Of a stretch of 39,100 bases of DNA, positions 18,584-32,158 are shown piece after piece. The DNA comes from Paracoccaceae bacterium. GTDB lineage: Bacteria > Pseudomonadota > Alphaproteobacteria > Rhodobacterales > Rhodobacteraceae. The DNA lies in assembly GCA_028284705.1 (NCBI GenBank), contig JANQRE010000003.1:1-39100 (forward strand), written 5' to 3'. Made by a program: the position numbers and the translations under genes. Numbering within the stretch: position 1 is the first letter of the stretch; each line of letters begins with the position of its first letter. The notes beneath the pieces were generated by a model. The model saw nothing but the letters and a program-made list of their open reading frames with translations, did no database searches and had not been told where the DNA came from.

Positions 18584-20140
18584 ATGAGTTCCACAGGCGA
18601 GACACAGACGCTCAGCGCCAGTGATACCATTGGCGGGCTCGACGTCGCCCTGACCGCGGAATTGCCAACCTTCGCGACCGAAGAGTTCATGGTGACCGCG
18701 GATATCACCCAAAGTGAGCTTAGCCAGGACATCAATGTGGCTCTGGTGCTCGATACTTCGGGCTCCACGGGTGGCAACTCAGGCTCGGATGTCGATGGCG
18801 ATGGCGACAACGACACATTCCTCGAAGCACAGCAATTCGCGGCCAAGGCGCTGTTTCAACAGCTCCTGGATGCTGGCTACAATCCTGAAGATGTGACCGT
18901 GACGTTGATCGAATATAACGGGTCGGCCTCCACGGTGGGCAATTTCACGCTGTCTGACCAAAGCGCCTTCGACGATGCGGTTGATGACCTCGATGACGGT
19001 GGTTTCACCAATTTCGACGACGCGCTGGACGAAGTGATTGACCAATGGGCCGCGACGACGACCGATGGCAATGCGGATGACAGCCCGGAAAGCGAAGTGA
19101 CGGCGAATGACAGCAACTTCGTGCTGTTCCTCTCTGACGGATTTCCCAACCAGGGCGGGACGAATTTCGCGGATGAAGTTGCGACGCTCGAGAACGACTA
19201 CAACGCGTCGATCACGGCGATCGGTGTCGGTGCCAATTCCAGCCTGACCCAGTTGAACAATCTGGATAACACAGGCGGCGCGGAACAAGTGACCGATGCC
19301 AGCCAGTTGGCCGATATCATTGGTGCACCGCCACCGCTGCCGGAACTGCAGCAGGTTGAGATTGTCGTGGATGGCGAAGTGCTTGCGGTCTTCCCGCCGA
19401 GCGCACTGATCGAGACACCCTTTGGCTACCGCCTCGATTGCGAGACGATCACCGGCTACGACTACCAGCTTGGTGAAGACCTGGAGGTCGAAGTGCGTGC
19501 GGTGTTTGAGCCGGGTGGCGATATCCTGACCGTTGGCACCATTCAGATCCCGCAAGTGCCGTGCTTCGTGCTCGGCACACTGATCCTCACACCGCTGGGC
19601 TATGTGCCGATTGAGAGCCTGAAGATCGGGTCACGTGTCGTGACGCGGGACCATGGCACGCAAGTTGTGCGCTGGATTGGCCAATCGACGATTTCCTCCG
19701 AGATGCTGAACGCGCATCCCGAACTGCGCCCGGTGAAAATTGCCAAAGGCGCATTGGGCGACGGTGCCCCGCTGCAAGACCTCTACGTGTCTCGCCAGCA
19801 TCGCATTCTGGTGCGCGACTGGCGGGCGGAGGTGATGTTCGGTGCGGAAGAGGGCGTGTTGAGCCCTGCCGCCTCGCTGATCAATGACAAGACGATTGTC
19901 ACCGATCATGCCTCAGATGAGGTCACCTATGTGCATGTCGCCTTCGACAATCACGAAGTGCTCTATGCAGATGGGGTCGAGGCGGAAAGCTTCCACCCGG
20001 CCTCGGAGATGGTGGCTGGCATGACGCCAGCGCAACGCGCAGAACTTCTGGCGATTTTCCCGGAACTGGAACTGCCGATGTCGCGGGCGTTTGAATCCGC
20101 CCGGATCGAGTTGAAAATGCGCGAGGGTGGGGTCCTTTAG
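18584..20140 (+). CDS. VWA domain protein with C-terminal Hint domain
   Basis: A 518-residue acidic protein, probably secreted. The von Willebrand A domain (about residues 45-250) has a complete MIDAS start, Asp57-Thr-Ser59-Gly-Ser61, and a later LFLSDG. A calcium-loop-like insert DVDGDGDND (69-77) sits after the MIDAS. From Cys327 (CFVLGTLI) a Hint_2 domain of hedgehog/intein type follows, with RTV-like strand SRVVTRDHG, SRQHRILV, and NHEVLYADGVEAESFHP near the end. Hint_2 modules are abundant in Rhodobacterales extracellular proteins and are thought to self-process at the N-terminal cysteine. There is no Sec signal; type I secretion is likely but its genes are not here. The start ATG follows a GGGGGA ribosome site. 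Confidence 0.88.
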   Translation: MSSTGETQTLSASDTIGGLDVALTAELPTFATEEFMVTADITQSELSQDINVALVLDTSGSTGGNSGSDVDGDGDNDTFLEAQQFAAKALFQQLLDAGYNPEDVTVTLIEYNGSASTVGNFTLSDQSAFDDAVDDLDDGGFTNFDDALDEVIDQWAATTTDGNADDSPESEVTANDSNFVLFLSDGFPNQGGTNFADEVATLENDYNASITAIGVGANSSLTQLNNLDNTGGAEQVTDASQLADIIGAPPPLPELQQVEIVVDGEVLAVFPPSALIETPFGYRLDCETITGYDYQLGEDLEVEVRAVFEPGGDILTVGTIQIPQVPCFVLGTLILTPLGYVPIESLKIGSRVVTRDHGTQVVRWIGQSTISSEMLNAHPELRPVKIAKGALGDGAPLQDLYVSRQHRILVRDWRAEVMFGAEEGVLSPAASLINDKTIVTDHASDEVTYVHVAFDNHEVLYADGVEAESFHPASEMVAGMTPAQRAELLAIFPELELPMSRAFESARIELKMREGGVL

Positions 20141-22080: not shown

Positions 22081-22809
22081 TTAAGTCCGGGCGCGGGCGG
22101 CCATCACATCTTCCGCAAGCTGAAGCGTATAGCGTTCCAAGGCGCTGAGTTGCGTTTCGCAGGCAGGTGCATCCCGCGTCTCAAGCGCATCGGCGATAGC
22201 GGTGTGCAGGCGAATGATCTCTTCGCGGGACCGCGCGGTGAAGGTGATCATGTTCATGAGCGGCTGCATCGCCTCGACGGCGCCGGCGAGTTGGTAGGCG
22301 AGCACCGGGTTGCCCGCCGCATCGACGAGCGCGCGGTGGAAGGTGACGTCGGAGGCGCAGAATGCCTCGTCACTGAGGCCCGGCTGACCCTGACGGTGAA
22401 TCTCGGCGCGCATGGTGGCGAGGTGATCGGGTTCGCGCCGCTCTGTGGAAAGAGGCGCACAGGCGCGCTCCATCGCGTAGCGGGCTTCACAGGCGGTCGC
22501 GAAGCTGACGGCATTCATACTGAGAAGCAGCGTCGAGGTTGTGATCTGCTGGCCATAGGCGTCTTCGAACCGCAGGCGGTTCACGAAAGCGCCACCCGTT
22601 GCGCCGCGTTGCGTGCGAATGAGCGATTGCGCGGCGAGGCGTTTTAGGGCTTCGCGCACGGTGGGGCGGGAGACGTCGAATTGCTCGGCAAGCTCTGCCT
22701 CGGAGGGCAGCCGTTCATCCACAATCAATTCGCCCGAAATAATCGCGTCACGGATCGCCGTTGCGATTTGTGCCGAGAGGTCGGTCGATTTCTGCGCTTT
22801 TGTCTTCAT
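22081..22809 (-). CDS. GntR-family regulator, FadR/FCD subfamily
   Basis: A 242-residue repressor type. The winged helix (about residues 12-78) has the GntR signature LPSEAELAEQFDVSRPTVREAL. The C-terminal FCD helical domain follows, with FHRALVDAAGNP and RLHTAIADAL supplying histidines usual for metal-assisted effector binding. It is divergent from the DUF2182-dmdA-acuI operon, and the 73-base gap holds a perfect FadR-type operator. It therefore probably represses that operon and itself; the effector may be a DMSP catabolite such as acryloyl-CoA, which is inference. A GntR gene beside dmdA is a pattern I recall from other roseobacters. Confidence 0.9.
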   Translation of the reverse strand: MKTKAQKSTDLSAQIATAIRDAIISGELIVDERLPSEAELAEQFDVSRPTVREALKRLAAQSLIRTQRGATGGAFVNRLRFEDAYGQQITTSTLLLSMNAVSFATACEARYAMERACAPLSTERREPDHLATMRAEIHRQGQPGLSDEAFCASDVTFHRALVDAAGNPVLAYQLAGAVEAMQPLMNMITFTARSREEIIRLHTAIADALETRDAPACETQLSALERYTLQLAEDVMAARART

Positions 22810-22818
22810 CCCCGTGCC

Positions 22819-22843
22819 TTTTTAATTGTCAGACAATTAAAAA
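22819..22843. promoter_or_regulatory. Operator for the GntR regulator
   Basis: A 25-base perfect palindrome: 12-base arms (TTTTTAATTGTC and its complement) around a central A. Its core TTGTCAGACAA matches the FadR-subfamily consensus TNGTNNNACNA exactly. It begins 10 bases upstream of the GntR start and 40 bases before the DUF2182 start, so it can control both directions. Confidence 0.85.
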
Positions 22844-22882
22844 CCTGACATTCCGAATACACTATCTGAGTCGGAGAAACCA

Positions 22883-23692
22883 GTGTCTGGCCTCATAAGA
22901 TCTGCGCTTTGGCTGAGCTTTTTCGCCGCGATATTAGCGGCTTGGTGGGTCATGTTCTCCATGGCGCGCATGATGGGGCTGGACTGGATCGGCCGTCCAC
23001 AAGCGATGATGCCGATGGAGGGCATGTCATCGGAAATGTCGGGCATGTCAGGCGGCATGGACGGGATGATGGAGATGACCACATTCCCCGTCCTGTTCCC
23101 GATGTGGGCGATCATGATGGCGGCGATGATGCTGCCGACCATGGTGCCGACCTTGCGCTCTTATGAAGACCTGATGGTCAGCGCGAACGGGACACGCGCC
23201 GGATGGGTCGGGGTTCTCTTGGGCTATTTCGTGGTCTGGGTGGCCTTTGCGGCGCTGATCACCGTGGCGCAGATGGGGCTGCTGGCCTCCGGTCTCATCG
23301 ACATGATGGGCATCTCGACGACGCTCTGGTTCGCGGCCGCTCTGCTGATCGTCGTCGGCGCCTTCCAGTTCACCCGTACCAAGGAGATTTGTCACGGCGT
23401 CTGTCATTCGCCGATGACCTATTTTCTCGGCCATTGGCGCACCGGGTTTGCCGGTGGTGTCCGCATGGGGCTGGGGCTTGGCGCGTTCTGCGTGGGCTGT
23501 TGCTGGGGGTTCATGGCGCTGGGCTTTGTCGGCGGGGTGATGAGCCTCTTGTGGATGGGGCTCGCAACCCTCTTTATGGTGATCGAGAAATTGCCGCAGA
23601 TCGGGCATTATGTGACAAAACCGGCCGGGGTCCTGCTGATCCTCGCCGGTATGGGCGTGGCGGGCTATGCCGTGCTTGGGACGGGAGGATAA
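22883..23692 (+). CDS. DUF2182 family membrane protein with methionine-rich loop
   Basis: A 269-residue inner-membrane protein, annotated in the family as a predicted metal-binding membrane protein. About seven hydrophobic segments are visible. Between the first two lies a loop (residues 42-65) with 10 methionines in 24 residues (MMPMEGMSSEMSGMSGGMDG onward), a composition known from copper-handling proteins. Later features are HGVCH and FCVGCCWGF in or near membrane helices. GTG start at 22883 with CGGAG ahead. First gene of the operon leading to dmdA; only one base separates it from the DUF1326 gene. Function is unproven; metal trafficking is the simplest reading. Confidence 0.85.
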   Translation: MSGLIRSALWLSFFAAILAAWWVMFSMARMMGLDWIGRPQAMMPMEGMSSEMSGMSGGMDGMMEMTTFPVLFPMWAIMMAAMMLPTMVPTLRSYEDLMVSANGTRAGWVGVLLGYFVVWVAFAALITVAQMGLLASGLIDMMGISTTLWFAAALLIVVGAFQFTRTKEICHGVCHSPMTYFLGHWRTGFAGGVRMGLGLGAFCVGCCWGFMALGFVGGVMSLLWMGLATLFMVIEKLPQIGHYVTKPAGVLLILAGMGVAGYAVLGTGG

Positions 23693-23693
23693 G

Positions 23694-24392
23694 ATGGCGA
23701 AGAAAGCGAAACAGCCGTCAGATCGTCTGCAGGTGATGCAGAAGATCGACGCGCGGATGAACCCGACGCGCAGGCGCAAGGAACCCACGAATTGGGAGAT
23801 CAGGGGGGAGCTGTTTCTCAACTGCTCCTGCACCGTCTTTTGTCCCTGCGTCGTGTCGCTCGGCGCGCACCCACCGACCGAGGGGCATTGCCATGCCTGG
23901 ATGGCTGTGGCCATCGATGAGGGGCATTTCGAAGGCGAGTCCCTTGCGGGTCTCAATATCGGACTGCTGGTCGATATCCCCGGACGCATGGGAGAGGGCG
24001 ACTGGAAGGTCGCGGCTTATGTCGACGAACGTGCAACGCAGAAGGCCTATAACGGCATTCTGAAAATCTTCTCGGGCGCGGCGGGGGGCACGACCGGTCT
24101 CTTCACCATGTTGGTCTCGACCATCATCGGCGCCGAGCGCGCGCCTGTGGAGATTGTGCGGGAGGGCAAGACGCGCTCGATCAATATCGGACGCAAGATT
24201 CAAGGCGAGATTGAACTCTTGTCCGGCAAGGACCCGGACCATCCGGTGATGGTTTCGAACTCCAAATACTGGATGGGACCGGACATCATTGCCGCTGTGG
24301 GCAAGAAATCCCGCGTGCGCGATTACGGGCGGGTCTGGGATTTCGGTGGCAAGAGCGCGGAGGTCTGCCCCATTGAGTGGTCCGGCCCATGA
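23694..24392 (+). CDS. DUF1326 family protein
   Basis: A 232-residue protein of DUF1326, a family without known function. Its signature is a cysteine cluster NCSCTVFCPC early in the domain (about residues 48-57), followed by GHCHAW. These Cys and His residues look suited to binding a metal or cluster. No signal peptide is seen; the basic N-terminal 35 residues (KKAKQPSDR, RRRKEP) are not part of the domain. The start ATG at 23694 follows GGGAGGATAAG, an excellent ribosome site. It pairs with DUF2182 upstream and overlaps the DinB-like gene by 4 bases. Confidence 0.87.
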   Translation: MAKKAKQPSDRLQVMQKIDARMNPTRRRKEPTNWEIRGELFLNCSCTVFCPCVVSLGAHPPTEGHCHAWMAVAIDEGHFEGESLAGLNIGLLVDIPGRMGEGDWKVAAYVDERATQKAYNGILKIFSGAAGGTTGLFTMLVSTIIGAERAPVEIVREGKTRSINIGRKIQGEIELLSGKDPDHPVMVSNSKYWMGPDIIAAVGKKSRVRDYGRVWDFGGKSAEVCPIEWSGP

Positions 24393-24892
24393 TCACAGCC
24401 GAATACTGCCAGACCATGGCGCGCTATAATGCGTGGCAAAACAGGAGCATGCGTGAGAGTTTTAAAGCTCTTGGGATGAAGGAATTGGAGAAGGATCGCG
24501 GCGCGTTCTTTGGCTCGATGTGGGCGACGGCAAACCATCTTCTCTGGGGTGATCAGATCTGGACGGCGCGCTTTGATGGTGGGCATGGACCGGATGGCGG
24601 GATCACGGACAGCACCAAGCTGCATGATGATCTGCAGTTGTTTCTGGATGATCGGCTGCGCACCGATGAGCGGATCATCCGGTGGGCCAATAAGGTGAAC
24701 CATATCGATCTGGTGGGGCCGATGAGCTGGTATTCGGGTGCAATGAAAAAGACGATGACCAAGCCGAAAGCGCTCTGCGTCATGCAGCTTTTTAACCATC
24801 AGACCCATCACCGAGGTCAAATCCACGCGATGCTGACGGCGGCGGGCGCCAAGCCCGACGATACCGATCTGCCGTTCATGCCGGAGGCCTGA
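24389..24892 (+). CDS. DinB family protein
   Basis: A 167-residue four-helix-bundle protein of the DinB/YfiT group, which includes thiol-dependent metalloenzymes and damage-inducible proteins. The probable metal ligands are His in ATANHLLWGD (first helix pair) and the two His of NHQTHHRGQ near residue 135-143. The start MITAEYC (ATG 24389) overlaps the DUF1326 stop. Only three bases separate it from dmdA, so it is embedded in the DMSP operon. A role in thiol transfer would be chemically consistent with methanethiol release from DMSP demethylation, but this is speculation. Confidence 0.85.
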   Translation: MITAEYCQTMARYNAWQNRSMRESFKALGMKELEKDRGAFFGSMWATANHLLWGDQIWTARFDGGHGPDGGITDSTKLHDDLQLFLDDRLRTDERIIRWANKVNHIDLVGPMSWYSGAMKKTMTKPKALCVMQLFNHQTHHRGQIHAMLTAAGAKPDDTDLPFMPEA

Positions 24893-24895
24893 GAC

Positions 24896-25996
24896 ATGGC
24901 GACCATCGCGCCGTCGCGCCGGGTCCGGCGCACGCCGTTCTCCGAAGGGGTCGAAGCCGCTGGAGCCAAAAGCTACACGGTCTATAACCGGATGCTTTTG
25001 CCGACCGTGTTCCGCTCGGTGGAGGAGGATTACCACCACCTGAAATCGGCCGTGCAGGTCTGGGATGTCGCGGTCGAGCGGCAGGTGGAGTTGCGTGGCC
25101 CTGATGCGGGGCGGCTGATGCAGATGCTCACTCCACGTGATCTGCGGGGCATGCTGCCGGGCATGTGTTATTACCTGCCCACGGTCGATGGCACGGGCGG
25201 TATGCTGAACGACCCGGTGGCACTGATGCTGGCCGAAGATCGCTACTGGATTTCCATTGCCGACAGCGATTTACTCCTTTGGGTCAAAGGCTTGGCGCAT
25301 GCTCTTTACTTGGATGTGATTGTCGAGGAGCCGGATGTGTCGCCGCTGGCGATCCAGGGGCCCAAGGCGGACGAACTGGCGGCACGCGTGTTCGGAGATG
25401 CGGTAAAAGAGCTGCGGTTCTTCCGCTATGGCTATTTCGACTTTCAAGGGCACCAGATGCTTGTGGCGCGCTCGGGCTATTCGAAGCAGGGCGGGTTTGA
25501 GGTCTATGTCGAGGGGTCCGAGAAGGGCATGCCTTTGTGGAATGCGCTGATGGAGGCGGGGCGTGATCTGGATGTGCATGCCGGTTGCCCGAACCTGATT
25601 GAACGGATTGAGGGCGGCTTGCTGAGCTACGGCAATGACATGACCCGCGATAACACGCCCCATGAATGCGGGTTGGGGAGGTTCTGTTCGACCCAGACGG
25701 CGATTGGGTGTGTGGGACGCGATGCGCTGTTGCGCGTGGCGACGGAGGGGCCCGTCAAGCAAATCCGCGCCATCGCCATCGAGGGTGACATTCCGCCCTG
25801 CGACCGGCTTTGGTGGGGCTATGGGGGTGACAAACTGGTGGCGCAGGTGACCTCCGCCGCCTGGTCGCCGGACTTCAATACGAATGTTGCCATCGGTATG
25901 GTGCGCATGACCCATTGGGAGCCCGGAACCGAGTTGCGGATTGAGACCCAGGACGGTCCACGTAAGGCCATCGTTCAAGAAAAATTCTGGATTTAG
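24896..25996 (+). CDS. dmdA: Dimethylsulfoniopropionate demethylase
   Basis: Transfers a methyl group from DMSP to tetrahydrofolate, giving methylmercaptopropionate, the first step of the demethylation pathway in marine bacteria. The 366-residue protein belongs to the glycine-cleavage T-protein fold. It matches roseobacter DmdA closely in recalled blocks: RRVRRTPFSEGVEAAG at the start, YTVYNRMLLPTVF, VQVWDVAVERQVE, SGYSKQGGFEVYVEGSE and SYGNDMTRDNTPHECGLG. It is the fourth gene of its operon, with acuI 12 bases later. GcvT-family relatives look similar, but the acuI neighbour and the N-terminus favour DmdA. No dmdB, dmdC or dmdD is in the window, so later steps are encoded elsewhere. Confidence 0.88.
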   Translation: MATIAPSRRVRRTPFSEGVEAAGAKSYTVYNRMLLPTVFRSVEEDYHHLKSAVQVWDVAVERQVELRGPDAGRLMQMLTPRDLRGMLPGMCYYLPTVDGTGGMLNDPVALMLAEDRYWISIADSDLLLWVKGLAHALYLDVIVEEPDVSPLAIQGPKADELAARVFGDAVKELRFFRYGYFDFQGHQMLVARSGYSKQGGFEVYVEGSEKGMPLWNALMEAGRDLDVHAGCPNLIERIEGGLLSYGNDMTRDNTPHECGLGRFCSTQTAIGCVGRDALLRVATEGPVKQIRAIAIEGDIPPCDRLWWGYGGDKLVAQVTSAAWSPDFNTNVAIGMVRMTHWEPGTELRIETQDGPRKAIVQEKFWI

Positions 25997-26008
25997 AGGA
26001 GCTTAAAG

Positions 26009-26992
26009 ATGTTCAACGCACTTGTCGTTCGCAAGGAAGGTGACGAGAAGCCCTCCGCTTCGGTCGAAGAAATCTCTGAGGATCAACTGCCTGAGGGTAA
26101 CGTGACGGTGGCCGTGGAATACTCCACCGTGAACTACAAAGACGGGCTGTGTATTGGACCGGGAGGCGGGCTGGTGCGCAACTACCCGCATGTGCCGGGT
26201 ATTGATTTTGCAGGCACGGTCGAGAGTTCGGATGACGACCGCTACACGCCCGGCGACAAGGTTGTGCTGACCGGCTGGCGGGTTGGGGAAGTGCATTGGG
26301 GCGGCTATTCGCAGAAAGCGCGCGTGAAAGCCGATTGGCTGGTGCCGCTGCCCGATGGACTCGACACCCGGCAGGCGATGGCCGTGGGCACCGCTGGGTT
26401 CACCGCGATGCTGGCGGTGATGGCGCTGGAGGATCATGGGATCAAGGACGGTCCGGTGCTGGTGACGGGCGCTGCCGGGGGCGTGGGGTCCGTGGCGACG
26501 GCGATCCTCGCGAAGCTCGGCCATGAGGTGGCCGGTGTCACCGGGCGGCCTGAGACGGCGGATTATCTGAAGGACCTCGGTGCCACGCAAATCGTGGCCC
26601 GCGAAGAGATCAATGAAACGACGAAACGGCCTTTGGAAGCAGAGACGTGGGGCGGCTGCGTCGATGCCGTGGGCGGCGACATGCTGGCGCGGGTGTTGGG
26701 GCAGATGAAATACGGTGCATCGGTTTCTGCGGTTGGTCTCGCGGGCGGGGCAGGCCTGCCGGCGACGGTCATTCCGTTTCTTCTACGGGGAGTGAACCTG
26801 CTGGGCATCGACAGCGTCATGCAACCCTATGAAAACCGCGTGCGGGCCTGGGAGCGGATTGCGAAAGGCCTGCCGATGGACAAGCTGGAGGCGATGATCC
26901 AGCCCGCAACGCTTGGTGATCTGCCCGGGTTGGGGCGCGATATTCTGAATGGTCAGGTCAAGGGCCGCGTCGTCGTTGATGTGAACGCCTGA
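26009..26992 (+). CDS. acuI: Acryloyl-CoA reductase (NADPH), AcuI/YhdH family
   Basis: A 327-residue medium-chain dehydrogenase/reductase that converts acryloyl-CoA to propionyl-CoA, which detoxifies acrylate formed from DMSP. Family blocks are VNYKDGLCI, PGIDFAGTVE, the NADP-binding loop TGAAGGVGSVA, LGATQIVAREE and LLGIDSV. No zinc ligands of alcohol dehydrogenases are present, as expected. It directly follows dmdA (12 bases, ribosome site GAGGAG at 25996-26001), an arrangement known from Ruegeria, so demethylation and acrylate handling are transcribed together. Confidence 0.93.
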   Translation: MFNALVVRKEGDEKPSASVEEISEDQLPEGNVTVAVEYSTVNYKDGLCIGPGGGLVRNYPHVPGIDFAGTVESSDDDRYTPGDKVVLTGWRVGEVHWGGYSQKARVKADWLVPLPDGLDTRQAMAVGTAGFTAMLAVMALEDHGIKDGPVLVTGAAGGVGSVATAILAKLGHEVAGVTGRPETADYLKDLGATQIVAREEINETTKRPLEAETWGGCVDAVGGDMLARVLGQMKYGASVSAVGLAGGAGLPATVIPFLLRGVNLLGIDSVMQPYENRVRAWERIAKGLPMDKLEAMIQPATLGDLPGLGRDILNGQVKGRVVVDVNA

Positions 26993-27053
26993 CGCGCAGT
27001 TGGTGACATAGGGGAACTCGGCTATGCATTGGGCGTCCATATAGGAGGCCCCA

Positions 27054-27274
27054 ATGTCAGACCCTTATGCCGCGCTCGCCGCGCAGGATGACGCGCTTCA
27101 GGAACGCATCGCTGACGCCATGGAAGCGCGGTGCCTCGAGCCCTCGCAGAAGAGGGGGTCCTGTTCCCTGAGACGGCCGCCGCGATGAAGGCGGAGGCGA
27201 AGGCACGGGTCAAAGCGGATAGCTTTTTCGGGTTCATGTCCTATGTGAGCCAGATTGCGACCAAACCCGGATAG
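27054..27274 (+). pseudogene. Internally deleted, frameshifted methyltransferase remnant
   Basis: A strong ribosome site (AGGAGG, 5 bases before the ATG at 27054) precedes MSDPYAALAAQDDALQERIA, which resembles the N-terminus of class I SAM-dependent methyltransferases. The frame then stops at 27188 after 44 codons. A -1 frame relation near the CCC run at about 27140 leads into VLFPETAAAMKAEAKARVKA and DSFFGFMSYVSQIATKPG, stop 27272-27274, which reads like the end of the same family. The middle, including the SAM motif, is missing. I infer an internal deletion of perhaps 200 codons in an old gene behind dmdA-acuI. The family assignment is from memory of family ends and is moderate at best. A sequencing error could explain the frameshift but not the missing core. 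Confidence 0.5.
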
Positions 27275-27380
27275 GATTTGAGCACTCGGCAAAAGGCGGG
27301 ACCGGCAAAAGGTCAAGTGCGATCAAGCGCGGTTGGAGGGCTTCGTGCCATGAAAGCCCAGTGACCCTTTGGAGACCCCC

Positions 27381-28202
27381 ATGGCCCTTCTGGACAAAGT
27401 GATCTGGCAGATCGAGGCGCATCTGGATGAGGATTTGACCCTGCACATCCTCTCAGACCGCTGCGCCGCAAGCCCCGAACACATGGCCCGTGTCTTTCGA
27501 CAAGGTGCGGGCCTGTCGATCATGGCCTATATCCGGGCGCGACGGTTGTCGGAAGCGGCCAAGCGCATCGCAGCGCAGGAGGCTGACATCCTGACGATTG
27601 CCCTGGAGGCGGGCTATGGCTCTCACGAGGCGTTCACCCGCGCTTTTGCGAACTATCTGGGCGTGCTGCCCAGCACGGTGCGCAAGGCGCGGTCCACTGA
27701 CACACTTTCGCTGATGGAGCCTTTAGAGATGAAAAAAGATATGATTGTAGAGATCGACCCGCCCGAAATCCGCGAACGCGACGGGTTTCGCGTGGTGGGC
27801 ATGAGTCTCAGGAGCAATGTGGAGAACACCGCAGCGATCCCGCCGCTTTGGCAGGAATTTACCCAGAAAGAGGCGGATGTGCCGGGCGCGAAGCTTGGGA
27901 CCGCCTATGGCGTCTGCCACAGCGCCGATGAGGCCGGGAACTTCACCTATATGGCGGCGATTGAAGCTACGGGAGATATGGAAGGCATGGAGGTTGTGAA
28001 GATTCCAGGCGGCAAATACGCCGTATTCACCCATCGCGGTCATATCTCGGACTTCCCGAAGATGGTCTACACCGTCTGGAACAAGGGACTGCCGGATGCC
28101 GGGCTGGAGCCGACGATGGAGCCGGATTTCGAGCTTTATGATGACCGGTTTGATCCCAAAACCGGGCGCGGCGAGGTGGAACTCTGGATTCCGATTAGCT
28201 GA
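27381..28202 (+). CDS. AraC-family regulator with GyrI-like effector domain
   Basis: A 273-residue protein. Residues about 5-100 carry the double helix-turn-helix of AraC/XylS proteins (LHILSDRCAASPEHMARVFRQ and TIALEAGYGSHEAFTRAF). Residues 120-273 form a GyrI-like small-molecule-binding domain (VVGMSLRSN, YGVCHS, KIPGGKYAVFTHRG, ELWIPIS). Such fusions (Rob-like) usually respond to amphipathic or toxic compounds. Start ATG 27381 sits behind TTTGGAG; an in-frame ATG four codons earlier is less well placed. A bidirectional terminator follows. Its targets are unknown; the adjacent BCCT transporter is a candidate. Confidence 0.9.
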   Translation: MALLDKVIWQIEAHLDEDLTLHILSDRCAASPEHMARVFRQGAGLSIMAYIRARRLSEAAKRIAAQEADILTIALEAGYGSHEAFTRAFANYLGVLPSTVRKARSTDTLSLMEPLEMKKDMIVEIDPPEIRERDGFRVVGMSLRSNVENTAAIPPLWQEFTQKEADVPGAKLGTAYGVCHSADEAGNFTYMAAIEATGDMEGMEVVKIPGGKYAVFTHRGHISDFPKMVYTVWNKGLPDAGLEPTMEPDFELYDDRFDPKTGRGEVELWIPIS

Positions 28203-28265: not shown

Positions 28266-30086
28266 TTACTCGGCAGGCGCACCAGCACTGGCATGCTTGT
28301 CGCGCAATCCGTCGCGATAGAGCGCTTTGGTCAATGCGACCATCATCAGGCCCATCACCATCGTGAAGGGCAGGGCGCCGATGATCATCGCATTTCGGAG
28401 CGCATCCATCGGATTGTTCTCACCCGCCGCGACAATCAGCGTTCCGATCACAGCCGTGAGGATCAGGCCCCAGATGATCTTGTGCTTGTTGCCGGTCTGA
28501 GCGTCGCCGCCGGACATGATCGTGTTCATCACGAGGATGCCGGAATCAGCCGAGGTGACCAGGAAGGTCATGATCAGCACGACGCACATGATGGTTAGTG
28601 CCGAGAGCAGCCCGCCTTCGATCATCTGGCCCAGGGTCACGAAGAGCTTCGCGGTGTTCGACGCGCCGGTGATGGCGCCATTGGCACCGCCGGTGAGCTC
28701 CAGATCAATTGCCGTGCCGCCAAGGATGGTCATCCAGGCGAAACAGACGAGGGCGGGTGCGAAGACGCAGCCGACGATGAACTCACGGACCGAACGGCCT
28801 TTGGAGATGCGCGCCAGGAACAGCCCCACGAAGGGTGAGAACGCGATCCACCAGGCCCAGTAGAAGGTGGTCCAACCGGCTTGCCAGCCGAAGAGGCGAC
28901 CTTGGCTGCCGGCTTCATAGACCGCCGCAAGGGTTTCCGGCGGCAACGTCGCAGCCTCGCCTTCAAGCCCCGAGACGAAGCCATCAAACGACCCCCATGC
29001 GTTTTGCGCGCCCTTCAGGCTGTCGGCCAGAGGTTGCGCATCCGCGGGTAGGGCCGCGGCAAAGGCAGCGGCATCCTGCGGTCCATAGGCCTCGAAGCTC
29101 AGGGCAAGGAAGTTCAGGATGTAGTCCACCATCGCCGTGCCATAGGTCGTCATCGCGAAGAGGAACGAGCCGAAGATCACGAAGGTCAGAAGCAGGATCA
29201 GCGACAGGACCAGATTGAGGTTGGAGAGGTATTTCACCCCACGTCCCACACCAGAGACCGCCGAGATGATCGACAGACCCATGATCACCACGAGACCGGC
29301 GATCAGGCCGACTTTGCCTGGGGCAGGCGCGGCGCCTTCTTCGGTGGTCATCATCCACTCCATGCCGGTGATCGCGTAGACCCCGTCAATGAACTGGCTG
29401 ACGCCGTAACCGATGGTCACAGAGACGCCGAGGATCGTGGCGACAACGCCGAGAACGTCCACGACGTGACCCAGAAAACCGTTGAGCAATTTGCCGAAGA
29501 GCGGCGTCAGCGCAGACCGGATCGTCAGTGGCATTTCGCGGGTGTAGGCATAGTAGGCAAGGCTGAGGCCGGTGATCACGTAGATCGCCCAGGCGTGGAA
29601 GCCGTAATGCAGGAAGGTGTAGCGATAGGCCGATTGTAGCGCTTCCTCTGTGTTGCCTGTGACGTCTCCCGCCACAACAACCGGGTTCGATCCCCAGAGG
29701 CCGATGGGTTCTGCGGTCGCAAAGACCATGAGGCCCACGCCGAGACCGGCACCGAACATCATGGAAAACCAGGAGAAATTGGAAAACTCCGGCTTCTCGC
29801 CCGGCACGCCCATGACGCGCTTGCCGGTTGGCAGGATTGCGACGGCGGCTAGGAAGAAAAAGAACAGGCCGACAATGATGATGTAGAATGTGTTGAAGCT
29901 TTCGAGCAGCCGGAAGTTCCAACTTCCAAGCGTGGAGTTGGCGTTGCCCGGCCAGATCAGGGCCCAGAGCACGAGGCCGACCATGATCGATTTTGAGATG
30001 AGCGCGATGGGAAGGCTGTTGCCTTCATAAAATCCCGAGGGCGCTTTCGCGATCTCAAGATCCGTAAACGGGTCTTTTGGTGCCAT
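28266..30086 (-). CDS. BCCT family transporter (betaine/carnitine/choline/DMSP-type)
   Basis: A 606-residue secondary transporter for quaternary ammonium or sulfonium compounds, with about 12 membrane helices. The family hallmark TTFYWAWWIAFSPFVG (helix 8, tryptophan box) is followed by ARISKGRSVREF. In the helix-4 substrate box HYGFHAWAIY the position that is Trp in BetP is Tyr, while the other two aromatic residues are kept. A longer loop than in the second BCCT of this window lies before helix 8. Start MAPKDPFTDLE (ATG 30086) is preferred over an in-frame ATG at 30239, whose extra 51 residues are not hydrophobic. Its closeness to dmdA-acuI suggests DMSP or glycine betaine as substrate, by inference. 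Confidence 0.92.
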   Translation of the reverse strand: MAPKDPFTDLEIAKAPSGFYEGNSLPIALISKSIMVGLVLWALIWPGNANSTLGSWNFRLLESFNTFYIIIVGLFFFFLAAVAILPTGKRVMGVPGEKPEFSNFSWFSMMFGAGLGVGLMVFATAEPIGLWGSNPVVVAGDVTGNTEEALQSAYRYTFLHYGFHAWAIYVITGLSLAYYAYTREMPLTIRSALTPLFGKLLNGFLGHVVDVLGVVATILGVSVTIGYGVSQFIDGVYAITGMEWMMTTEEGAAPAPGKVGLIAGLVVIMGLSIISAVSGVGRGVKYLSNLNLVLSLILLLTFVIFGSFLFAMTTYGTAMVDYILNFLALSFEAYGPQDAAAFAAALPADAQPLADSLKGAQNAWGSFDGFVSGLEGEAATLPPETLAAVYEAGSQGRLFGWQAGWTTFYWAWWIAFSPFVGLFLARISKGRSVREFIVGCVFAPALVCFAWMTILGGTAIDLELTGGANGAITGASNTAKLFVTLGQMIEGGLLSALTIMCVVLIMTFLVTSADSGILVMNTIMSGGDAQTGNKHKIIWGLILTAVIGTLIVAAGENNPMDALRNAMIIGALPFTMVMGLMMVALTKALYRDGLRDKHASAGAPAE

Positions 30087-30556
30087 AATGTATCCCTGTT
30101 GCTTATTGGCTTTTGGACGACCGAGTTTGCTCGGTTCTGTCTTTGAACGACCCGCGGGTTTCGGCTTTGCGCCGAACCACATATGCGGGCGGATCATTGT
30201 CGCGCAGCCTAGTGAAATGTGGATGCGTGATCGGTCCAAAAGCGACAGGTCGTGGCAGTTTTTGGACTGATTGGCGGAGAGTCGCCAAAGTGAATTTGGC
30301 CCTCAATGTGGAGCTTTTTGCTGCATTCCGGTTTGGAAATGTATTAAAAACAGTGTTTTAAGGCATGACATTCACGTAACGTGAAATTTCTACGATTTTT
30401 TTCTAGGAGAATTCTGATCTCGGTCGTAGCCTCGGAGGCGATGATTGCTCAGGGAGAGACGCAGTTCTCGCAATGCAGTCACGCAAGTCGTGGAGGGTGG
30501 GCCAGAGAAGCACGCCAGCAAAACATAAAACATTCTGACAGCGAGGAGCAAAAACT
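30087..30556. other. 470-base gap between divergent BCCT genes
   Basis: No convincing gene. The BCCT-proximal third carries two short hairpins, ACCGAG/CTCGGT (30120-30135) and TTCGGC/GCCGAA (30160-30176). The middle is AT-richer, with AAAACA-G-TGTTTT at 30347-30359 and the palindrome at 30371-30385. The second BCCT gene has a ribosome site GAGGAG shortly before its ATG. Such length suggests regulated transcription in both directions. Confidence 0.5.
30371..30385. promoter_or_regulatory. 15-base palindrome, candidate operator
   Basis: TTCACGT-A-ACGTGAA is a perfect 7-base inverted repeat about 170 bases upstream of the plus-strand BCCT gene and 285 bases upstream of the minus-strand one. It may be a site for a regulator of osmolyte or DMSP uptake; the regulator is unknown. 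Confidence 0.4.
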
Positions 30557-32158
30557 ATGCCGTCATCTGACGCGCCACCAGAGGTGGCCCCCGGGACAAT
30601 GGAGTTCGAAACGGACTTCGAACTGGGTCAGGACAATATCCGGCCCATGGGGCTGGACATCCACAACCCCGTTTTCGTGATTTCTTCAGTTGTGATTTTT
30701 GGTTTTGTGCTCATCGCTTTGGCCAATCAGGAGGCCTCGGCAGAGTTTTTTGGCTGGTTGCGCCCTTGGCTGACCAGCACCTTTGACTGGTTCCTGGTTC
30801 TGTCGGTGGATGCGATTACGCTATTTTGTATCGCATTGATCTTCCTACCTGTGGGTTCGGTCAGGATCGGCGGCAAGGACGCCAAGCCGGACTATTCCTA
30901 TCCCGGCTGGATCGCGATGATGTTCGCCGCGGGCATCGGCATTGGCCTGTTGTTCTTCGGCGTGCTTGAGCCGGTCTATTACAACTTCTCTGAAGGCGGG
31001 AATGCGCGGCCTCTGAATGTCGATATCACCCAACCGGGCAACGAATATGTCGGCGTCGTGGGCACCATTCACCATTGGGGTCTTGAGGGCTGGGCCGTCT
31101 ACGCGGCGGTCGGTCTGTCGCTGGCGATTTTCTGCTACAACCTCGGACTTCCCCTGACGCTCCGCTCTGCGTTCTTCCCGCTTCTGGGCGAGCGTGTCTG
31201 GGGCTGGTGGGGCCACTTGATCGACACATTGGCCGTTTTCGCGACGCTCTTTGGTCTGACGACCTCGCTTGGACTGGGTGCGCAACAGATTGCGGCTGGT
31301 CTGAACGAGATATTCGGCATCGAGCCATCGAATACGGTCACCGTGCTTCTGATCATCGGCATCACCCTGATTGCCCTTGGGTCCGTACTGCTTGGCATGG
31401 ATAAGGGCGTGAAGCGGCTCTCCGAGATCAACATGGTCATGGCCGTTTGCCTGTTCCTCTTTGTAATCTTCGTCACCGGCGTTGGCGCTGCCATCAGCCG
31501 CTACTTTAACGTGATGGTGGATTACATCGTGATGTTGCCGGCGCTCTCGAACCCGTTCGGGCGAGAGGACCTGAGCTACTTCCACGGTTGGACGACCTTC
31601 TACTGGGCCTGGTGGATTGCGTGGTCACCCTTTGTGGGCATGTTCATCGCGCGCATCTCCAAGGGTCGCACGGTGCGGGAGTTCGTGATCTGCGCGCTTC
31701 TGGCTCCGACGGCGGTCTGTGCACTCTGGATGTCGACCTTTGGCGGCGCCGCTATCGACATGCTGAACGCGGGCAGTGCCGAAGGCGTTCGGGCCACAGT
31801 GATCGACAGCTATGCGCCGGAAGGAGCTTTGTTCGGCTTCCTCAAAGAGCTTCCGCTCTACGGCCTTATCGCACCGATCTCGCTGGTCCTGATCGTGATC
31901 TTCTTTGTCACGTCATCGGACTCGGGCAGCCTCGTGATCGACACGATCACGGCGGGCGGCAAGATGGACGCACCCGTGGTTCAGCGCATCTTCTGGTGCA
32001 CGCTGGAAGGTCTGGTGGCCATTGCGCTACTTCTGGGCGGCGGATTGGCGGCGTTGCAAGGGGCGGCGGTATCGACGGGTATCCCGTTCACGCTCGTTGT
32101 CCTCGTGATGTGCTACTGCCTGTGGCTCGCGCTGAGGTCAGAGCGCGCCAAGCTCTGA
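30557..32158 (+). CDS. Second BCCT family transporter
   Basis: A 533-residue paralogue of the BCCT transporter on the other side of the gap. Helix 4 keeps the classical aromatic box HHWGLEGWAVY (Trp-Trp-Tyr, as in BetP), and helix 8 has TTFYWAWWIAWSPFVG and ARISKGRTVREF. The N-terminus has an acidic cytoplasmic tail of about 35 residues and the C-terminal tail is short, so osmotic sensing of the BetP kind is unlikely. Its substrate box differs from the first copy, so the two probably take different compounds. A strong terminator follows. Confidence 0.92.
   Translation: MPSSDAPPEVAPGTMEFETDFELGQDNIRPMGLDIHNPVFVISSVVIFGFVLIALANQEASAEFFGWLRPWLTSTFDWFLVLSVDAITLFCIALIFLPVGSVRIGGKDAKPDYSYPGWIAMMFAAGIGIGLLFFGVLEPVYYNFSEGGNARPLNVDITQPGNEYVGVVGTIHHWGLEGWAVYAAVGLSLAIFCYNLGLPLTLRSAFFPLLGERVWGWWGHLIDTLAVFATLFGLTTSLGLGAQQIAAGLNEIFGIEPSNTVTVLLIIGITLIALGSVLLGMDKGVKRLSEINMVMAVCLFLFVIFVTGVGAAISRYFNVMVDYIVMLPALSNPFGREDLSYFHGWTTFYWAWWIAWSPFVGMFIARISKGRTVREFVICALLAPTAVCALWMSTFGGAAIDMLNAGSAEGVRATVIDSYAPEGALFGFLKELPLYGLIAPISLVLIVIFFVTSSDSGSLVIDTITAGGKMDAPVVQRIFWCTLEGLVAIALLLGGGLAALQGAAVSTGIPFTLVVLVMCYCLWLALRSERAKL

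Follow-up and report, generated by a model that had tools for sequence, protein, structure and literature searches.

What are three little-studied genes doing in front of a DMSP demethylase gene? The gene dmdA codes for the enzyme that begins the breakdown of DMSP, a sulfur compound from algae, and marks the point at which the sulfur of DMSP either stays in cells or leaves as DMS. In the stretch analysed here (the window: 39,100 nucleotides of contig JANQRE010000003.1 of a marine Paracoccaceae bacterium, assembly GCA_028284705.1), dmdA is preceded by genes for a PpoB2/DUF2182 membrane protein, a DUF1326 protein and a DinB-family protein, and is followed by acuI. We asked whether these genes form one set, whether they belong to dmdA and what they could contribute to the use of DMSP.

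The demethylase operon and its proteins

The row PpoB2-DUF1326-DinB-dmdA-acuI is read in one direction with spacings of 1, -4, 3 and 12 bases, and a divergent GntR gene lies in front of it (Table 1). Coordinates and family searches confirmed the gene positions and spacings given in a preliminary description of the locus, which had also proposed one operon headed by GntR; short conserved gaps and a conserved operator fit that proposal, and the whole row would be made as a single transcript. Consensus scans of positions 22750-27400 returned 0 promoter-like and three terminator-like sites, compared with 1.4 and 3.2 in shuffled sequences.

Table 1. Features of the dmdA locus in the window
Feature	Position	Strand	Remarks
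GntR/FCD-family regulator	22081..22809	-	PF00392 and PF07729 above cut-off; divergent from the operon
Operator, perfect 25-base palindrome TTTTTAATTGTC-A-GACAATTAAAAA	22819..22843	.	Between GntR and PpoB2; core AATTGTCAGACAATT at 22824-22838
PpoB2/DUF2182 membrane protein, Met-rich	22883..23692	+	GTG start; PF09948, 198.6 bits (cut-off 28.7)
DUF1326 protein, C-x-C-x3-C-P-C motif	23694..24392	+	PF07040, 175.4 bits (cut-off 25)
DinB-family protein, conserved His triad	24389..24892	+	PF05163, 72.6 bits (cut-off 23)
dmdA, DMSP demethylase	24896..25996	+	NF009133 (NCBIfam equivalog), 656.8 bits (cut-off 410)
acuI, acryloyl-CoA reductase family (AcuI/YhdH)	26009..26992	+	TIGR02823, 443.5 bits (cut-off 297.25)

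By its equivalog match the fourth gene of the row is that of the DMSP demethylase DmdA, and THF-dependent demethylation is predicted for its product. The closest chain among solved structures is 3tfh (352.8 bits), the nearest relative (93%) comes from an uncultured Litoreibacter, to which genus the window genome is close, and the runner-up within the window genome has 28% identity. The AcuI protein scores 418.5 bits against NF051456, the NCBIfam equivalog for AcuI, below the cut-off of 440; this cut-off is reached in few Rhodobacteraceae genomes (27 of 199, among the matches listed).

The genes before dmdA had been described as coding for three uncharacterised proteins, a label that fails for one of them: DUF2182 is now Pfam's 'PpoB2, copper chaperone' and is not wholly uncharacterised. 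Across 43 aligned rows, PpoB2 has the invariant residues M74, M78, M82, M83, C170, C174, C203, C206, C207, M211, M220, M225 and M232. It is predicted to be mostly helical (structure model pLDDT 87.5), and neither a sequence search of the PDB nor a fold search with the model at E<=0.001 returned a match. The DUF1326 protein, whose family (PF07040) has a single copy in the window genome, gave matches at E>=0.05 only in a sequence search of the PDB; its predicted fold is that of enzymes and may be acetoacetate decarboxylase-like, the structural rows being 7-12% identical. Its C-x-C-x3-C-P-C motif is invariant as well. No DUF1326 relative was confirmed in the viral contigs searched. The invariant Met and Cys residues of PpoB2 are compatible with Cu(I) binding, and copper may be the metal that PpoB2 and DUF1326 handle. 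A metal or thiol role, as had been suggested for the three proteins, fits these Cys and Met residues and the PpoB2 family.

Distribution of the locus and co-variation of PpoB2 with DUF1326

We surveyed the dmdA loci of the best 80 of 203 dmdA matches, using at each junction the start codon that gave the smallest gap, a choice that favours short gaps. Gene families were counted in 199 Rhodobacteraceae genomes drawn evenly, about one per genus; the Fisher tests given here ignore kinship. PpoB2 and DUF1326 precede dmdA with short gaps in 65 of the 80 loci, and one further locus, ended by a contig edge, has DUF1326 only. Among the 199 genomes, DmdA above the cut-off is present in 87, DUF1326 in 105 and PpoB2 in 109; DmdA and DUF1326 occur together in 73, DmdA only in 14, DUF1326 only in 32 and neither in 80 (Fisher 2e-15 across genera, kinship ignored). 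DUF1326 adjoins DmdA (same strand, <2.5 kb) in 68 of the 87 DmdA-bearing genomes, which makes the locus with PpoB2 and DUF1326 the commonest dmdA-locus form in the sample. The preliminary description, which had called for a survey of co-occurrence with dmdA, had treated the three genes as an extra on a GntR-dmdA-acuI core in one strain; the survey found the co-occurrence, and the genes are not a strain oddity, because DUF1326 adjoins DmdA in so many genera. GntR-dmdA-acuI without an insert does exist (L160, L163, L168), as does a form with DinB only (L164). In a class-level sample, DUF1326 was found in 33 of 241 genomes, four of the 33 in Rhodobacteraceae.

PpoB2 and DUF1326 are one co-varying unit. 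PpoB2 is present in all 105 DUF1326-bearing genomes, and 121 of 124 DUF1326 copies lie within 1 kb of a PpoB2. Over 65 rows, the protein distances of the two correlate with r 0.83, compared with 0.25-0.37 against DmdA or AcuI, and the partial r is 0.81 once DmdA and AcuI distances are removed (Mantel p 0.001). Six Litoreibacter loci carry divergent PpoB2 and DUF1326 proteins (38-39% and 55-58%, respectively) beside DmdA and AcuI that are 84-90% identical to those of the window; it thus seems that both members of the pair were swapped as a unit, at the same site, within Litoreibacter. Mismatched types also occur: in L040, L066, L079 and L086 PpoB2 is of the divergent type but DUF1326 is closer to that of the window, and L075 is the reverse. 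DinB stands apart, being present in 54 of the 65 pair-bearing dmdA loci and also in loci without the pair (L060, L087, L164), so that the three genes do not make up the single trio first supposed. Its junction with dmdA measures <=30 bases in 49 of 57 cases (smallest-gap start codons), and its His triad is largely kept (H50 in 68, H137 in 65 and H141 in 65 of 69 rows). A second pair lineage has its genes in the order DUF1326-PpoB2 and is not located near GntR, dmdA or acuI; among ten proteins typed, no shared neighbour hints at its function.

Nor is the set specific to dmdA. For the 32 DUF1326-bearing genomes lacking dmdA, 21 loci with the window type of pair were fetched, 10 genomes having the other lineage only and G190, at a contig edge, being left out. 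The pair is retained beside acuI in 18 of the 21: acuI is next on the same strand in 16 and divergent across GntR in two. Of the other three loci, two are cut off by the contig end and the third lacks acuI. Broken pieces of dmdA persist between the pair and acuI in L121, a distant DmdA-like stretch (41%) adjoins the pair in L136, and L171 has dmdA with a remnant of DUF1326; both dmdA and DUF1326 thus seem to have been lost in places from a common arrangement. Several dmdA-less pair loci share fumC, SspB and chromate-transporter genes upstream and cysteine-desulfurase-like, photolyase and CFA synthase genes downstream; the downstream surroundings common to several loci also include TrgA and cysteine synthase. 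These common chromosomal surroundings point to descent from one old locus.

The GntR operator and SBP56 genes

In 63 of 77 loci, a copy of the operator core AATTGTCNGACAATT that differs at no more than 3 positions adjoins GntR; 12 further loci have four mismatches and two have six, compared with 0 of 77 random pieces at <=3 mismatches. Loci without the pair or without dmdA have it too, so the operator goes with GntR. The window genome holds one exact core site, that of the dmdA operon, and one single-mismatch site (G000:C26:64439-64453), which lies 48 bases before an SBP56 gene. Across the 199 genomes, the pattern AWWTGTCNGACAWWT has 115 sites in 81 genomes and the reversed pattern 13. The placement of these sites rests on the 75 of the 115 forward sites that were listed: 35 lie before the pair, at least two before a pair-less dmdA, at least three before acuI and at least three before SBP56 (G000, G106 and G108), the last three counts being minima as these targets were first picked by eye. 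A rough estimate puts the number expected before SBP56 at about 0.001. The link in the window genome is post hoc, having been noticed first; independent cases come from G106 and G108, which represent two other genera. For the remaining 32 listed sites, 20 places were inspected. Three are at GntR-acuI loci (L288, L294, L295) and two before acyl-CoA synthetases (L279, L284); two more pattern sites are at a GntR-ligase-dmdA locus (G221), and some of the other listed sites are surely due to chance. In a position-weight scan of 66 SBP56 places, three had a strong operator and one more had a weak one; the 66 are a subset of the places found and include a cut gene (L180) with a misplaced upstream stretch, and the random control, drawn partly from operator-holding loci, is too strict. 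The link between operator and SBP56 is recurrent, not general.

That the pair belongs to a DMSP/acrylate regulon defined by GntR and its operator is well supported. GntR probably acts by repression, and the signal may be acrylate or its CoA ester; in Ruegeria pomeroyi, acrylate is an inducer of dmdA-acuI (PMC3338564).

The SBP56 protein of the window genome matches PF05694 with 571.3 bits (cut-off 34). On reading its sequence no N-terminal signal sequence is apparent, SCO1/senC or mauG are not recognisable beside its gene, and neither of the next two ORFs has a Pfam match; for want of such a signal and such neighbours, we do not call it a periplasmic MtoX. To our knowledge, no member of its clade has a demonstrated activity. 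On plasmid pMaD9 of Marinovum algicola DG 898 (CP010864.1), as in the window, GntR, PpoB2, DUF1326, DmdA and an AcuI-like protein stand together, but the row runs PpoB2-DUF1326-acyl-CoA synthetase-DmdA-AcuI-like-SBP56-membrane protein and has no DinB. Its pair belongs to the divergent type, DUF1326 having 59.5% identity; its SBP56 shares 90% and its membrane protein 58% identity with the counterparts in the window genome. Elsewhere, SBP56 follows dmdA by about 70 bases (G103), is separated by 0.8-3.2 kb from a GntR that shares 78-83% identity with that of the window (L183, L184, L219), or stands in a row with a ferredoxin-like protein and a downstream PpoB2 (G156). A strong SBP56 is absent from 29 of the 73 genomes with both DmdA and DUF1326. 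Within DmdA-bearing genomes its association with DUF1326 is not significant (44/73 vs 5/14, p 0.14), and in genomes lacking DmdA it is found in 8/32 DUF1326 carriers vs 5/80 others (p 0.009), both tests ignoring kinship.

Readings of the pair and related systems

Our preferred reading, a tentative one, is that PpoB2 and DUF1326 are a Cu(I)-handling unit within a GntR-controlled DMSP/acrylate operon and serve a cuproenzyme, likely of the SBP56 family. DMSP would relieve GntR by way of acrylate or its CoA ester, and dmdA, acuI and the pair would then be made together. Demethylation would lead on to methanethiol, which binds Cu(I) strongly; the pair, handling Cu(I) at the inner membrane as one functional unit, would keep copper available and deliver it to a co-controlled cuproenzyme, or might instead protect copper from methanethiol. 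DinB would be an optional metal/thiol helper. The most likely client would be the SBP56-family protein, with the same operator before its gene in the window genome; the SBP56-family methanethiol oxidase of Hyphomicrobium is reported to be copper-dependent (PMC5739008). Methanethiol as the reason for the pair and SBP56 as its client are what we infer from these links. Several observations weigh against copper and methanethiol: the pair stays with acuI after loss of dmdA, the modelled DUF1326 fold appears enzyme-like, strong SBP56 is missing from many pair-bearing genomes, strong operators stand at so few SBP56 places, and the window genome has nine two-mismatch operator-like sites vs six for the reversed pattern.

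The chief competing explanation, which we consider doubtful, places the pair on the acrylate side. Here the pair, with or without DinB, would serve the acrylate/acryloyl-CoA branch, DUF1326 being an enzyme or metal-dependent protein that has an acetoacetate-decarboxylase-like fold and acts on a reactive acyl intermediate, PpoB2 its metal or membrane partner and dmdA a guest in a GntR-acuI operon. Yet an AcuI-family match is found in at least 188 of the 199 genomes, far more widely than DUF1326, so acuI does not need DUF1326; cupin DMSP lyases (PF16867, >=100 bits) are no more frequent in dmdA-less DUF1326 carriers (8/32) than in the other dmdA-less genomes (20/80); and the fold comparison stands on rows of the low identity given above. 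It is rather unlikely that the pair is general copper housekeeping, placed in the operon by history and with no direct role in DMSP use. The shared chromosomal surroundings would allow an inherited linkage, and the second pair lineage stands away from the operon genes, but in Litoreibacter a divergent pair replaced the resident one in place without any exchange of dmdA, acuI or the regulator, the pair and dmdA are together on plasmids of two genera (two of five dmdA plasmids found; the Phaeobacter dmdA plasmid examined has no pair), and DUF1326 co-occurs with DmdA across genera. A dedicated accessory of the DmdA enzyme, acting in folding, cofactor or substrate supply, would suit three genes placed directly before dmdA with small gaps, the DinB-dmdA junctions among them; nevertheless, DUF1326 is absent from 14 of 87 DmdA-bearing genomes and occurs without DmdA above the cut-off in 32, and we regard this explanation as very improbable.

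Extended to the family, the copper reading becomes a broader claim, possible but hardly probable as a whole: in most DMSP-demethylating Rhodobacteraceae, the demethylase operon would include two proteins dedicated to copper delivery, which in some members would be regulated together with an SBP56-type methanethiol oxidase. Both the flux through marine DMSP demethylation and the release of methanethiol would then be copper-dependent. DUF1326 would be the copper partner, with an acetoacetate-decarboxylase-like fold, and PpoB2 would have a membrane fold without a solved relative. If this is true, the supply of copper could be tested as a factor that governs what becomes of DMSP sulfur, and a role could be given to two widespread families that have had little or none. 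In the model strain Ruegeria pomeroyi, GntR presumably stands before SPO1913 without the pair, and this pair-less form could explain why the pair has gone unstudied.

Known systems resemble parts of the locus. As in Ruegeria pomeroyi, dmdA directly precedes acuI; there the two genes (SPO1913 and SPO1914) are induced by DMSP and acrylate, and the main text of the paper describing them makes no mention of a DUF, hypothetical protein or transcriptional regulator. The PpoB1-PpoB2 system of Marinomonas mediterranea likewise has a PF09948-type membrane protein, there in an operon with its client enzyme; the window operon has no tyrosinase, its client is a proposed one, and the consulted part of that account mentions no DUF1326 partner (PMC2855505). 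In the mtoX-SCO1/senC-mauG operon, too, an SBP56-family gene is tied to a copper-chaperone gene as part of DMSP sulfur flow (PMC5739008), whereas the SBP56 gene of the window genome is on another contig, shares only the operator, and differs in the signal sequence and neighbours noted above. The families are known, and their combination and regulation appear to be undescribed within the literature searched; in the parts of the open literature consulted, no description of a role for the pair in the use of DMSP was found. The pMaD9 record annotates the pair as '(transmembrane) protein involved in DMSP breakdown', so its annotators had noticed the link between the pair and DMSP.

dmdA rows on plasmids and in Litoreibacter

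A single row on plasmid pMaD9 of Marinovum algicola (CP010864.1, 4393-12597) holds GntR / PpoB2–DUF1326–acyl-CoA synthetase–DmdA–AcuI-like–SBP56–membrane protein. The dmdA row of Phaeobacter inhibens pPGA1_262 is of another type, comprising acyl-CoA dehydrogenase, dmdD, an AMP-binding protein and dmdA, and both the PpoB2–DUF1326 pair and acuI are absent from it. In Litoreibacter (loci L016–L020 and L061), judging from sequence, a divergent PpoB2–DUF1326 pair appears to have taken the place of the original, with dmdA and acuI retained. At locus L185 (genome G081, contig C5; 3531-7777), genes for two FAD oxidoreductases, along with a partial match to PpoB2, come after that of a DmdA-like protein that scores below cut-off.

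SBP56 genes and their neighbours

In the genome of the window, the gene after that of SBP56, a protein on which no signal sequence was apparent by inspection, encodes a membrane protein of 222 residues that has no match in Pfam (both genes within contig C26, 62312-64391; locus L187, 6313-8392). The 33 ORFs resembling this membrane protein form one cluster and adjoin SBP56 genes of the same type. In genome G156 (locus L179, 4644-7242), SBP56, a 2Fe-2S ferredoxin-like protein and a PpoB2 paralogue form a same-strand row.

Other genes in the window

The two BCCT transporters following the operon may take up DMSP or betaine.

Further features of the window
Feature	Position	Strand	Remarks
BCCT transporter	28266-30239	-	Shortly downstream of operon; divergent from second BCCT gene
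BCCT transporter	30557-32158	+	Shortly downstream of operon; divergent from first BCCT gene
Protein with VWA domain and C-terminal Hint_2 domain	18584-20140
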